Assembly: GCA_002708905.1 (NCBI GenBank)
Contig: PAPM01000028.1
Span: 1-53,702 of the forward strand
DNA length: 53,702 bases
Direction: 5' to 3'
Origin: Pseudomonadales bacterium
Lineage (GTDB): Bacteria > Pseudomonadota > Gammaproteobacteria > Pseudomonadales > Ketobacteraceae
A program made the translations under genes and the position numbers. The notes under the pieces are model-generated. The model was not told the DNA's origin. It worked only from the letters and a program-made list of their open reading frames with translations, and searched no databases. Positions 27,249 through 36,437 of the stretch are shown here, in pieces. The stretch's first letter is position 1. Each line of letters opens with the position of its first letter.

Positions 27249-29324
27249 ATGCGTTGTGTTTATCGGGCCGTCGTGGCCTTCCTTCTGCTGTTTATGTCTG
27301 TTTATGCTGCGGCCTTTGAAGAGGTTCACTATCGTTCCCTGGACGAAGTGGGCACCGGCAGTATGCTGGTGAAAGGTGAGCAGGGTTACCAGCCTTTTGT
27401 GCGCAGTGAGGCAGAGTTTGATGTACAGGTGAGTGGTCTGGTATCCCGCGTTACGCTGCGGCAGGGTTTTATCAATCCCTCCCGGGAATGGGTCGAGGCG
27501 GTTTATGTGCTGCCGTTACCTGAGGACAGTGCGGTTAATGCCATGCGCATTCGCATTGGCGAACGGGTAATCGAAGGGGAGATCAAGGAGAAGCAGGAAG
27601 CCAAACGCATCTACACAGAAGCGAAGGCCCAGGGCAAGAGGGCCGGTTTACTGCAGCAACAACGCCCCAATCTGTTCTCTACTCAAGTGGCGAATATTGG
27701 TCCCGGCGAGACCATCGAAGTGGAACTGACCTTTCTGCAAACCCTGCATTACCAAAGTGGTGAATTCGCCCTGCGCCTGCCGATGACGCTCACACCCCGT
27801 TATATCCCCGGTGCTCCCGTAGAGGAAACGCCACCGCAGGAGGTTCAGGGCTGGGCTTTCCCAACCGCACAAGTGCCCGACGCCAATCTCATTACTCCGC
27901 CCCAGACCCACAGTGCCGCTGCCGACCAGCTGGTGGCCCGGCTGGATATAAAAATTAATGCCGGCTTTGAGGTGGAAAACTTTGCTGCGCCCTATCACAA
28001 CATCAGGGTTACCCGATTGAGCAACGACTACCTGATCCGACCGGAACAGGATCAGGTTCCTATGGATCGTGACTTTGTTTTGCGTTGGAAACCGGTGGCG
28101 CAACAGGCTCCGGTGGCAGCGTATTTTGCCGAGCAGATATCCGGCCACGATCATGGCTTGATCATGGTGATGCCCCCGGCTGCTTCACCGTCACTGCAGA
28201 TTGGCCCGCGGGAATTGATTATGATTATCGACAGTTCCGGCTCCATGTCCGGGCAATCCATGGTGCAGGCCAAGCAGGCCGTGCAGATGGCACTGGCCCG
28301 TCTACGTCCTCAGGATCGGTTCAATATCATTGATTTTGATTCCGGGTTTCGCACACTGTTTGCCACTTCCACCCACGCTTCCGAGGGCGCTATCCGCCGC
28401 GCCCGCTTTTTTGTAGATGGCCTGACGGCGGATGGTGGCACCGAAATGTATGCGCCACTGCAGGCAGCGCTCACTCAATCCGTTCCCGGTGAAAGCGGGA
28501 AAAGTGAAGACAGCCTTACCCAGATTGTTTTTATCACCGACGGCAGTGTAGGCAACGAGAGCGCATTGTTCGAACTCATCCATGAAAAAATTGCGGATAA
28601 ACGGCTTTATACCGTGGGGATTGGTTCTGCCCCCAACGCCTATTTTATGCGTAAGGCCGCTGAATTCGGTCGGGGCACCTATACCTACATCGGCAGCACC
28701 GATGAAGTGCAAACCAGGATGGCGGATCTGTTCGGTAAGATCGAAAAGCCGGCGTTGACGCAGATTGCCATAACAATAAACGGCTCGGAGGCTGAGCTCT
28801 ACCAGCAGCCGGTGCCGGATCTGTTTGTGGGGGAACCACTGTTAATCAAGGCGCGTTTTGATCAGCCACCTGAGAATGTGGTAATCGAAGGGCGCTTTCA
28901 GGGTCAACCATGGCGTCGGGAGTTAAAGCTGCAATCCGGTGAACAGGCCGAGGGTATCGCTACCCTGTGGGCGCGGGCGAAAGTGGCCAACCTGATGGAT
29001 GAGGGCGTGCGTCAGGGCAATGCATCGCTGCACAAAGAAGACATTATCAAGTTGGGCATCGTACATCGCCTGGTAACGCAGTACACCAGTTTTGTGGCGG
29101 TTGACAAAACGCAGGTTCGTCCGCAAGACGCCCCCTTGAAACAGAATCAAATCGCTAACCGAATGCCGGCGGGCTCAAATCAGCTGGCGCCCACGGTAGG
29201 CTACCCCCGTACGGCGTTGGGGCTGCATTGGCACATGCTGATTGGCCTGGGCCTGTTCGGTTTGGCGTTGTTGTTATGGCAACGCAATGAATTTGGAGGG
29301 GCACAAGATGCGGACCTGGCGTAG
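27249..29324 (+). CDS. Gram-negative sortase target: VIT and von Willebrand A domains
   Basis: 691 aa. Signal peptide at about 1-21; VIT (inter-alpha-trypsin) domain at about 25-165; von Willebrand A domain at about 320-500 with the MIDAS motif Asp328-Ser330-Ser332; then a C-terminal hydrophobic anchor at about 661-677. This matches the family described as the marine proteobacterial sortase target, usually the only substrate of its partner sortase. The sorting signal here reads YPRTA (652-656) instead of LPxTG, and the tail after the anchor is acidic rather than basic. The sortase gene overlaps its 3' end by 17 bp. GGGGTGAG precedes the ATG. Confidence 0.93.
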   Translation: MRCVYRAVVAFLLLFMSVYAAAFEEVHYRSLDEVGTGSMLVKGEQGYQPFVRSEAEFDVQVSGLVSRVTLRQGFINPSREWVEAVYVLPLPEDSAVNAMRIRIGERVIEGEIKEKQEAKRIYTEAKAQGKRAGLLQQQRPNLFSTQVANIGPGETIEVELTFLQTLHYQSGEFALRLPMTLTPRYIPGAPVEETPPQEVQGWAFPTAQVPDANLITPPQTHSAAADQLVARLDIKINAGFEVENFAAPYHNIRVTRLSNDYLIRPEQDQVPMDRDFVLRWKPVAQQAPVAAYFAEQISGHDHGLIMVMPPAASPSLQIGPRELIMIIDSSGSMSGQSMVQAKQAVQMALARLRPQDRFNIIDFDSGFRTLFATSTHASEGAIRRARFFVDGLTADGGTEMYAPLQAALTQSVPGESGKSEDSLTQIVFITDGSVGNESALFELIHEKIADKRLYTVGIGSAPNAYFMRKAAEFGRGTYTYIGSTDEVQTRMADLFGKIEKPALTQIAITINGSEAELYQQPVPDLFVGEPLLIKARFDQPPENVVIEGRFQGQPWRRELKLQSGEQAEGIATLWARAKVANLMDEGVRQGNASLHKEDIIKLGIVHRLVTQYTSFVAVDKTQVRPQDAPLKQNQIANRMPAGSNQLAPTVGYPRTALGLHWHMLIGLGLFGLALLLWQRNEFGGAQDADLA

Positions 29325-29907
29325 GCGCATTGCGCTGCTGTTGATGGTGCTGGCATTCTGGTTTTTGGGAGAGAGTGCCTATATGACTGCCAAGGCTCAG
29401 CTGGCGCAGTATCTGCTGGACGAAGCCTGGCAAAAACACTTGCAGGATGGTCAGCCCCATCGCCCCTGGCCCTGGGCCGATACTTCGCCTTTGGCCCGGC
29501 TGGTGTTTCCACAGCAGGATAAAAAACTGGTGGTGTTGGCGGGCGCCAGTGGTCGTAACCTGGCCTTTGGTCCCGCCCATTTGAGTGCCAGTGTGCAACC
29601 GGGGCATACGGGAGTCAGTGTGATTGGTGGTCACCGTGATACCCACTTTGCCTTCCTGCGGGAAGTGGAATTGGGAGAGCAGTTCCTGCTGCAGTCCCGC
29701 GACGGTGGTTTGCAGTGGTATCAGATTGTGCAGATACAGGTGACGGACGTGCGTGATTCGGAAATTTCGTTACAGGCGGACGAACCAGTGTTGGCATTGG
29801 TAGCCTGTTACCCGTTCAATGCATTGGACAGCGGTGGTCCGTTGCGTTATCTGGTCATCGCCAGGCGGATACAGGGTGGGGCTGCCCTCAGCCCCACGCG
29901 AGTGTGA
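29308..29907 (+). CDS. Proteobacterial sortase (transpeptidase)
   Basis: 199 aa from the ATG at 29308, which has GGAGG 8 bp upstream and lies inside the target gene. An N-terminal membrane anchor (about 7-22) precedes the sortase fold. Catalytic His109 is in IGGHRDTHF, Cys167 in LVACYPF and Arg180 in PLRYLV. Sortases join a cleaved C-terminal signal of the target to an acceptor amine; the acceptor in Gram-negative bacteria is not known. The tight overlap with a single VIT/vWA protein marks it as the dedicated enzyme for that target. Only 7 bp separate its end from the convergent lnt gene. Confidence 0.93.
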   Translation: MRTWRRRIALLLMVLAFWFLGESAYMTAKAQLAQYLLDEAWQKHLQDGQPHRPWPWADTSPLARLVFPQQDKKLVVLAGASGRNLAFGPAHLSASVQPGHTGVSVIGGHRDTHFAFLREVELGEQFLLQSRDGGLQWYQIVQIQVTDVRDSEISLQADEPVLALVACYPFNALDSGGPLRYLVIARRIQGGAALSPTRV

Positions 29908-33851: not shown

Positions 33852-34040
33852 AGTGGCTGCGTAATACGCCCTTCTATAGTGAATTGGATATAAGAATATA
33901 CGGAAGCGTCAGGCAGGAAAAGCATAATTGGGCTTTAAGAATCTTTGGTCATTTTATAACAGGTTTTTGGGACAAATGGTTTTTCCCAAAGGTGCGGTTC
34001 TTGCTGTAAAAAATGGTCACTTTATGTCGAACCTTTTTAC

Positions 34041-34063
34041 AGAACTGAATACTCGTCAGTTCT
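34041..34063 (+). other. Stable hairpin upstream of the structured RNA
   Basis: AGAACTGA (34041-34048) and TCAGTTCT (34056-34063) form a perfect 8-bp stem with a 7-base loop in the AT-rich stretch between ybeZ and the RNA candidate. The bases after it (TATTTGT) are only weakly T-rich. It could be part of the promoter region, a weak terminator, or the 5' part of a longer RNA. Confidence 0.35.
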
Positions 34064-34130
34064 TATTTGTCTATAAAATATATTTAAAACAAAGACATAT
34101 CAAACTGGCATATTGCCTGCATTGGTCAGG

Positions 34131-34334
34131 GCGTTGTTGCTGTTCGTGCTACCTACTTGCCTTTAAGTGGCTGAATTCCTAGGGGGAAAGCGAGCAGAAA
34201 CCCATTGGGGCACAATATGGGGGCGGTTTCACAGGACCTTGTTCTGGTGACAGTCCCCGGGTTTCTTTATTTGCTGTAGCCGTACGAGCAGTAACACGTG
34301 AACGACCGGACAACGCTGTTGCCGGTCGTTTTTT
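34131..34334 (+). ncRNA. Candidate structured small RNA with its own terminator
   Basis: This lies in the 496-bp gap between ybeZ and miaB, both minus. A closing helix joins 34136-34147 with 34284-34295 (12 bp, two G-U pairs), continues inward as GCTAC (34148-34152) / GTAGC (34276-34280), and outward past one bulge to about 34131/34299. Inside are a hairpin at 34153-34170, a long arm 34196-34203 / 34259-34266 extended by 34207-34210 / 34255-34258, and a tip hairpin at 34229-34250. The G-U pairs work only on the plus strand. A plus-strand terminator ends it. The outline (closing stem, open middle, long terminal arm) recalls 6S RNA, but I do not find its conserved bases. The exact 5' end is unknown. 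Confidence 0.5.
34301..34334 (+). terminator. Plus-strand terminator with no plus-strand gene before it
   Basis: AACGACCGG (34301-34309) pairs with CCGGTCGTT (34322-34330), extended inside by CAAC (34311-34314) / GTTG (34318-34321), and is followed by TTTT. On the minus strand no T-tract follows the stem. All genes from 29915 to 35697 are on the minus strand, so the signal must end some other plus-strand transcript. Confidence 0.85.
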
Positions 34335-34347
34335 ATTGGGCAGGAGT

Positions 34348-35834: not shown

Positions 35835-36437
35835 GTGTACGTGAAGGCAGGCAGGGTTCAGTCAAGAGTACAGGCACAATTGATGTGGTTGTTGGTGTGG
35901 TCGTTATGGGTGGTTGCCATTCCATCGTGGGCGGGGCAGTTGCCCATCAATACCCGGCTGGGTGGGGAATTTTCCCTGCCTTCCACCGTTGGCGAATCCT
36001 CCAGCTTGTCTGATTTTAAAGGCAAGGTGGTGCTGTTGAACTTTGGCTACACCAGTTGCCCGGATATTTGCCCCATGGTGCTGAACCGCATGGCGGCGGT
36101 GATGAATGAACTGGAAGATGAGCGCAGTAAAGTCCAGCCCATGTTCATTACCTTTGATCCCAAACGGGATACCATTGAGCGTTTGCAGCAGTACCTGAAA
36201 TATTTTGGTGATGACTTTATTGGTTTTACCGGTAGTGAGGAGCAACTGGCCGCAGTGGCCAGGCAGTATGGTGTGATCGCCATTGCCCAGAAATCCGACT
36301 CCGCCGCCGGTACCCTGTACACCCACAGCGACTACATTTACCTGCTGGACCGGCAGGGGCGGGTGCGGGCGCTGTTTGCCAAATCCGATTCCATCGACAA
36401 AATGGTGGACGACATAGAATCCCTGTTGGAGGACTGA
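35835..36437 (+). CDS. SCO1/SenC-type copper protein
   Basis: 200 aa if started at GTG 35835; GTG 35841 is better spaced from AAGCAGG. An N-terminal signal anchor (about 17-33) holds a thioredoxin-like domain in the periplasm. The copper/redox motif CxxxC is Cys75 and Cys79 in TSCPDICP, with the partner His in LYTHSDY. SCO proteins deliver copper to, or reduce, the CuA site of cytochrome c oxidase. The PCu(A)C chaperone follows 5 bp later, a known functional partner. Confidence 0.93.
   Translation: MYVKAGRVQSRVQAQLMWLLVWSLWVVAIPSWAGQLPINTRLGGEFSLPSTVGESSSLSDFKGKVVLLNFGYTSCPDICPMVLNRMAAVMNELEDERSKVQPMFITFDPKRDTIERLQQYLKYFGDDFIGFTGSEEQLAAVARQYGVIAIAQKSDSAAGTLYTHSDYIYLLDRQGRVRALFAKSDSIDKMVDDIESLLED

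Follow-up and report, generated by a model that had tools for sequence, protein, structure and literature searches.

A predicted sigma-54-dependent regulatory RNA behind a PEP-CTERM-type promoter in Ketobacter

A structured RNA lies on the plus strand at positions 34131–34336 of the stretch of DNA analyzed here (the window; 53,702 nucleotides, contig C27 of the 5.4-Mb genome G000, genus Ketobacter), where it is flanked by the housekeeping genes ybeZ and miaB. The reading that best accounts for this locus, to which we assign a probability of roughly two in three, is a stand-alone small regulatory RNA (sRNA) that would belong to the exosortase/exopolysaccharide regulon and be activated by the response regulator PrsR together with sigma-54. 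The predicted features are as follows.

34025–34041, plus strand: upstream activator site TGTCGAACCTTTTTACA, of the PEP-CTERM "motif 1" type, the predicted PrsR site
34106–34121, plus strand: sigma-54 -24/-12 promoter TGGCATATTGCCTGCA, of the form TGGCA(C/T)N5CTGC(A/T)
34132–34334, plus strand: predicted transcript, with its start (34132 ± 1) placed by the distance from the -12 element and its end in the U tract
34131–34149, plus strand: 5' arm of the closing helix P1, from the fold, arm swapping and covariation
34282–34299, plus strand: 3' arm of P1, own arms best of 40320 permutations
34173–34190, plus strand: conserved core GAAUUCCUAGGGGGAAAG, including hairpin 1 and its G-rich loop, hardly changed across the genus alignment
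34196–34203, plus strand: 5' arm of P2 AGAAACCC, an exact inverted repeat
34259–34266, plus strand: 3' arm of P2 GGGUUUCU, from the inverted repeat and the covariation table
34204–34216, plus strand: hairpin 2 AUUGGGGCACAAU, loop GGGCA predicted open in the window
34219–34258, plus strand: apical hairpin P3, sequence free to vary, 3 of 40320 permutations in the arm-swap test
34300–34334, plus strand: Rho-independent terminator, kept in six genus genomes

According to the proposed mechanism, the kinase PrsK would switch PrsR, which would bind TGTCGAACCTTTTTACA and, at the -24/-12 element 64 bp further downstream, activate RNA polymerase carrying sigma-54. We infer transcription from near 34132, with a stop at the terminator by 34334, and the RNA would be produced together with exosortase-sorted (PEP-CTERM) proteins, perhaps also with exopolysaccharide genes. 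P1 and P3 would be scaffolds of changeable sequence that hold a near-invariant core, and this core (two G-rich hairpins around the GAAACCC/GGGUUUC helix) would be the working part, presumably in trans, through base pairing with mRNAs or through protein binding.

Structure and conservation of the RNA

The original prediction had placed a structured plus-strand RNA in the gap between ybeZ and miaB, and this is now backed by conservation, covariation, a terminator and a promoter. Folding of 34131–34336 on the plus strand gave -93.3 kcal/mol (z = -5.92), with 0 of 200 shuffles as good, while the minus strand gave -66.4 kcal/mol (z = -3.14), also with 0 of 200 shuffles. The fold therefore favors the plus strand, although a minus-strand fold is not absent. 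The closing helix, announced as about 20 pairs, comprises 18 pairs in the minimum-energy fold and 4 more past an internal loop, and the nested arm and hairpins described inside it are present as well. The predicted transcript would be about 203 nt long.

The terminator consists of arms at 34301–34309 and 34322–34330, with six T at 34329–34334. It is plus-strand-specific, as had been claimed: read on the minus strand, the hairpin runs into CACGTG and has no U tract. A simple terminator scan of the window did not report it, because the 12 nt between its arms exceed the loop limit of 8 in that scan. Upstream, the nearest recognized plus-strand gene encodes a class GN sortase and is called to end at 29907, 4.2 kb away, in agreement with the earlier remark that no such gene precedes the RNA for more than 4 kb; the long ORFs from there to the RNA are on the minus strand.

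Alignment of the gap across relatives and a search for covarying pairs, both of which had been proposed as checks, found the structure kept. In the genus alignment, 93.0% of cells were paired, compared to 42.6–56.1% with slid partners. Two-sided changes occur in 9 of the 45 pairs; shuffles average 3.3 (sd 1.4), none of 500 reaching the observed number, although this control is lenient because there are only six related sequences and the structure was derived from them. We also swapped helix arms among all eight available sequences without an alignment, using arm limits set by the analyst. For P1, the sequences' own 5' and 3' arms gave the best sum of all 40320 permutations; for P3, own halves beat swapped ones, with 3 of 40320 permutations reaching the observed sum. 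A sequence's own arm was the best in its row in 6/8 rows for P1 and 5/8 for P3. P1 is weak in one locus (L004, -14.8 kcal/mol), and in L011 it is of unrelated sequence and forms 14 pairs around one bulged base. As predicted helices, then, the outer and apical elements persist while their sequences change.

The consensus comprises P1, hairpin 1, P2 (GAAACCC/GGGUUUC), hairpin 2 and P3. P2 is paired in 100% of cells, and since 7 of its 8 pairs never vary, it adds no covariation. Hairpin 1 likewise keeps its pairs in 100% of cells of the genus alignment. Hairpin 2 has one pair with a change on both sides and is missing from the folds predicted for L009, L004, L010 and L011, and a small helix at alignment columns 32–45 is poorly kept (76.5%). 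Within the genus, the core stretches GAAUUCC, G5, AAAG, GAAACCC and UUGGGGC are nearly invariant; column conservation across the gap peaks at 0.82–0.90 in the core and reaches 0.86 in the terminator. The block at 33852–33926, next to ybeZ, is as conserved in the genus (0.86–0.90) as the RNA core, so that the RNA is not the sole conserved part of the gap. This block is probably the ybeZ promoter or leader on the minus strand, and a similar stretch with ATATACC is present in the gaps of other families.

By BLAST, the RNA was matched in all six genomes of the genus (over 45 nt only in the most distant, G098), and in all six it lies between ybeZ and miaB. A covariance model built from these six (R1) and searched against 390 genomes of the order matched seven: the six themselves, by construction (E 1.2e-40 to 1.6e-19), and one sister-genus genome, G153 (E 3.6e-6). 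Another sister-genus genome, G152, carries the promoter and the core motif in the corresponding position upstream of ybeZ (L010), with only 11.2 bits (E 0.28) against R1. At both sister-genus loci (L010 and L011) the RNA lies upstream of ybeZ, the distance from ybeZ to miaB is about 1.5–1.6 kb and another ORF stands between them. The copies in these two genomes are more diverged than those of the genus. A pattern scan of a wider collection gave 10 matches, of which L088, L090, L091, L092 and L095 are the RNA; the other five (L087, L089, L093, L094, L096) were treated as chance, since they had no sigma-54-like element in the preceding 250 nt and no model match under E 3. BLAST matches outside the family (L005–L007; E 0.0016–0.0096) spanned 22–33 nt without ybeZ or miaB nearby and were dropped.

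That the original prediction could not match the RNA to a known family agrees with the Rfam results: none of the 4227 models matched the whole window at its gathering score, and the proposed search of 33852–34347 at E ≤ 10 returned three matches of 12.5–13.5 bits, compared to gathering scores of 40–60. Seven loci of relatives likewise had no Rfam match at gathering score, and ARAGORN reported nothing in the window.

Promoter architecture and the PrsK/PrsR/exosortase system

Most of the functional information is held by 34025–34121, a region absent from the original prediction. An element of the form TGGCA(C/T)N5CTGC(A/T) stands directly before the RNA in all eight loci, each with GG at -24 and GC at -12. 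With the start taken to lie 12 bases past the -12 C, transcription would begin at 34132, give or take one base. Further upstream, the activator site TGTCGRN5TTTACA is exact in 7/8 loci (L004 has one mismatch), 63–76 bp from the promoter and 64 bp in the window; four loci (L002, L009, L010, L011) carry an additional copy farther upstream. In PEP-CTERM genes under PrsK/PrsR, as described by Haft et al. 2006 (PMC1569441), a 17-nt motif ending in TTTACA is followed, after a spacer of 62.8 nt on average, by a -24(GG)/-12(GC) element. The arrangement found here, 17 nt ending in TTTACA about 63 nt before a -24/-12 element, is of the same kind.

Taken singly, neither element is significant: with two mismatches allowed, the sigma-54 element occurred at 41 sites in the window against 42.2 expected, which is chance level, and the activator site with at most one mismatch is common (57 sites, against 42 for the reversed control). 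In combination they are, as judged by the composite pattern TGTCGRN5TTTACA-N50-80-TGGN9TGCW, searched with its reverse as the control in the 15 genomes of the family. The composite gave 41 matches (40 distinct sites) in 14 of the 15 genomes, and the reversed control gave 0. Because the pattern was drawn from the RNA loci, matches at these loci are not independent; the other sites are. Thirty of the 41 matches were made into loci, representing 29 distinct sites, and the downstream ORFs were read by eye. Fifteen sites precede ORFs with a PEP-CTERM-like tail, 14 with EP and one with VPEIN; the VPEIN protein, the single one whose tail was scored, reached 19.7 bits with VPEID-CTERM, below the cut-off of 33. 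A further four precede short proteins (58–70 aa) with a membrane-Arg/Lys tail lacking PEP, five precede the miaB-ybeZ RNA, two a second non-coding transcript, and three (L108, L122, L130) were given no class. That the RNA has the promoter type of exported matrix-protein genes suggests that the protein-sorting system also has a non-coding RNA arm.

The regulatory and sorting proteins are encoded in the same genome. In G000, adjacent genes at C3:105027–108478 encode PrsR (TIGR02915, 694.8 bits; cut-off 502.6) and PrsK (TIGR02916, 607.3 bits; cut-off 300), and exosortase E (217.5 bits; cut-off 150) lies at C2:29020–30639 among exopolysaccharide genes. Among the same genes, one for a sugar transferase (C2:35977–37377) is equipped with a sigma-54-like element and a one-mismatch activator site. 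PrsR scored above cut-off in 14/15 family genomes, the exception being G154, which is 54% complete. Since G000 has 54 matches at E ≤ 0.001 to the model for PrsR, most of them different sigma-54 activators and one alone above cut-off, an activator other than PrsR could serve this promoter; we take PrsR to be the probable one. As a side observation, a one-mismatch activator site and a sigma-54-like element (9 of 11) also occur at C2:25593 in the exopolysaccharide cluster (L048, L101), where the 300 nt that follow contain no clear ORF.

A second RNA, and alternative readings of the locus

Two sites of the same promoter type appear to drive a second candidate sRNA.

G000:C24:152786–153013 (L041, L129, L136): second candidate sRNA
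G146:C38:122595–122798 (L131, L137): second candidate sRNA

In both (promoters at C24:152917 and C38:122702, respectively), the promoter is followed by about 95–105 nt ending in TTTTACCTTCAAGCGTTAAG and a terminator-like hairpin. In G066 and G126, this same 3' end lies some 700 nt from the promoter and serves a PEP-CTERM gene as its 3' UTR. The candidate has open ACCCU and ACCUU stretches; the next gene after it encodes a KAP NTPase in G000, and by eye G066 has a similar start there. The second locus suggests that such RNAs can arise by loss of an ORF.

For the miaB-ybeZ RNA, the same origin is only hinted at, and by the genes of the sister genus g92 alone. Nine same-family genomes lie outside the genus, and in six of them the gap contains a sigma-54-like element, namely in both genomes that have the RNA and in four of the five of g92 (G147, G148, G150, G151); none was found by the pattern used in G149, G028 and G154. 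In the four g92 genomes, the ybeZ-miaB gap holds, behind the same activator site and sigma-54 element, a gene for a 70–72-aa protein.

L012 383–598, with matching genes in L013, L014 and L016: g92 small protein

This protein has a signal peptide-like start and a membrane-spanning, Arg/Lys-ended tail without PEP; those of the g92 proteins that were tested matched nothing in Pfam and no NCBIfam model above its cut-off. A wider scenario can be drawn from both loci, which we put forward tentatively and at clearly less than even odds: PrsK/PrsR and sigma-54 would switch on at least two unrelated Ketobacter sRNAs, born from PEP-CTERM-type genes that lost the ORF and kept promoter and 3' end, and the miaB-ybeZ RNA would since have become a dedicated three-way-junction regulator of exopolysaccharide or matrix-protein production.

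The same observations could be read as decay, in that a short secreted protein like that of g92 was formerly expressed from the promoter, and the RNA is a leftover, ORF-less mRNA with no function in trans. A promoter of the same type and place precedes the membrane-tailed protein in g92, and at the second locus two species have a PEP-CTERM gene where two others have a non-coding transcript. However, helices with compensating changes and a core that hardly varies would not be maintained across two genera in a relic, and the g92 transcript and the RNA have no sequence likeness at E 0.01; we regard this as unlikely. Quite improbable, too, is a 5' leader or attenuator of a downstream plus-strand gene. 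It draws on the sister-genus loci, where a same-strand ORF (295 aa in L010, up to 333 aa in L011) starts about 230–355 nt past the promoter and no hairpin with a U tract was seen after the RNA, so that in the sister genus the RNA could be a leader; in the six genus genomes, by contrast, a strong terminator ends the RNA, the convergent end of miaB follows directly, and in the window the next recognizable plus-strand gene starts only at 35835.

The RNA lies on the strand opposite to two minus-strand genes, and a cis-antisense role would matter only against miaB-ybeZ read-through or through transcription beside ybeZ. We give this little credence, since it leaves the RNA-level covariation and the PEP-CTERM-type promoter unexplained. 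A small-peptide mRNA is very hard to sustain: frames of up to 50 codons with GTG or TTG starts cross the core in some genomes, but the core differs by 1–2-nt insertions (CC, CCU or CCUA in front of GGGGG), which put the frames out of register from one genome to the next, and the genomes have no start and stop in common. In the six genus genomes the locus instead has the makings of an sRNA, namely its own promoter, no ORF and a predicted Rho-independent terminator; with no conserved ORF and no PEP-CTERM product found in it, the RNA would be a non-coding member of the regulon and not a PEP-CTERM gene. Finally, 6S RNA (RF00013) or a substitute for it, which the length and the long imperfect rod bring to mind and which the original prediction had already doubted, can practically be dismissed, as RF00013 has no match in the window and each of the 15 family genomes has one 6S above gathering score, that of G000 on another contig (C29:51733–51914, 106 bits).

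Known systems and possible targets

A target search compared four segments of the RNA with 137 start regions (G000 stretches and the window), 548 comparisons in all. The best result for the hairpin-1 segment was an ORF of the exopolysaccharide cluster, G000:C2:11820–13649 (-22.9 kcal/mol, reached by 1 of 500 shuffles), which as one of 548 comparisons is not significant; no NCBIfam or Pfam model matches this ORF. Inspection of the sequence gave little reason to expect a CsrA/RsmA sponge, as GGA is scarce and the conserved copy sits in a predicted stem.

GlmY/GlmZ, Qrr and CrcZ are sigma-54-dependent sRNAs that are switched by a two-component or enhancer-binding regulator. The miaB-ybeZ RNA would work like them in that a regulator switches an sRNA through sigma-54; it differs in having no Rfam match, a different place and a different predicted regulator, and it would represent a new family among sigma-54-dependent sRNAs. 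To 6S the likeness is one of similar length and of a rod with open parts, without a match.

The closest parallels to the promoter are those of PEP-CTERM genes. In Haft et al. 2006 (PMC1569441), motif, spacing of about 63 nt, -24/-12 element, PrsK, PrsR and exosortase are all as here; those promoters front PEP-CTERM genes and a few others, whereas here the product would be a non-coding RNA. The PEP-CTERM gene pepA of Aquincola tertiaricarbonis is RpoN1-dependent, with a mapped -24/-12 promoter TGGCAC...CTGCTT of the type seen here (PMC9850573); unlike the miaB-ybeZ RNA, pepA is a protein gene from another order, and its control by PrsR is, in the text available, likewise predicted at most (PMC9850573). 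In Desulfovibrio vulgaris, the mapped target of the response regulator DVU0679 is an sRNA (PMC3333781), a comparable output although regulator and RNA differ. In the same study, PEP-CTERM genes were tied to another regulator, DVUA0057, for which the accessible part names no sRNA (PMC3333781). No sRNA under PrsR was among the matches listed in a literature search on PEP-CTERM/PrsR, Ketobacter and sigma-54 sRNAs, which covered titles and abstract openings and few subscription journals.

In many Proteobacteria, exosortase-sorted matrix proteins are predicted to be switched by PrsK/PrsR, and its outputs described so far, in the accessible parts of the papers, are protein genes. If our reading is right, an RNA behind a PrsR-type promoter would give the system a post-transcriptional output and offer a short handle on how PrsK/PrsR bears on exopolysaccharide, and the second locus would let one read how an mRNA gave rise to an sRNA. 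The window also contains, at 27249–29907, a gene for a marine proteobacterial sortase target protein (TIGR03788, 757.8 bits) adjoining that for the class GN sortase (TIGR03784, 218.9 bits), a pair that, judged by these model matches, is a second protein-sorting system in G000.
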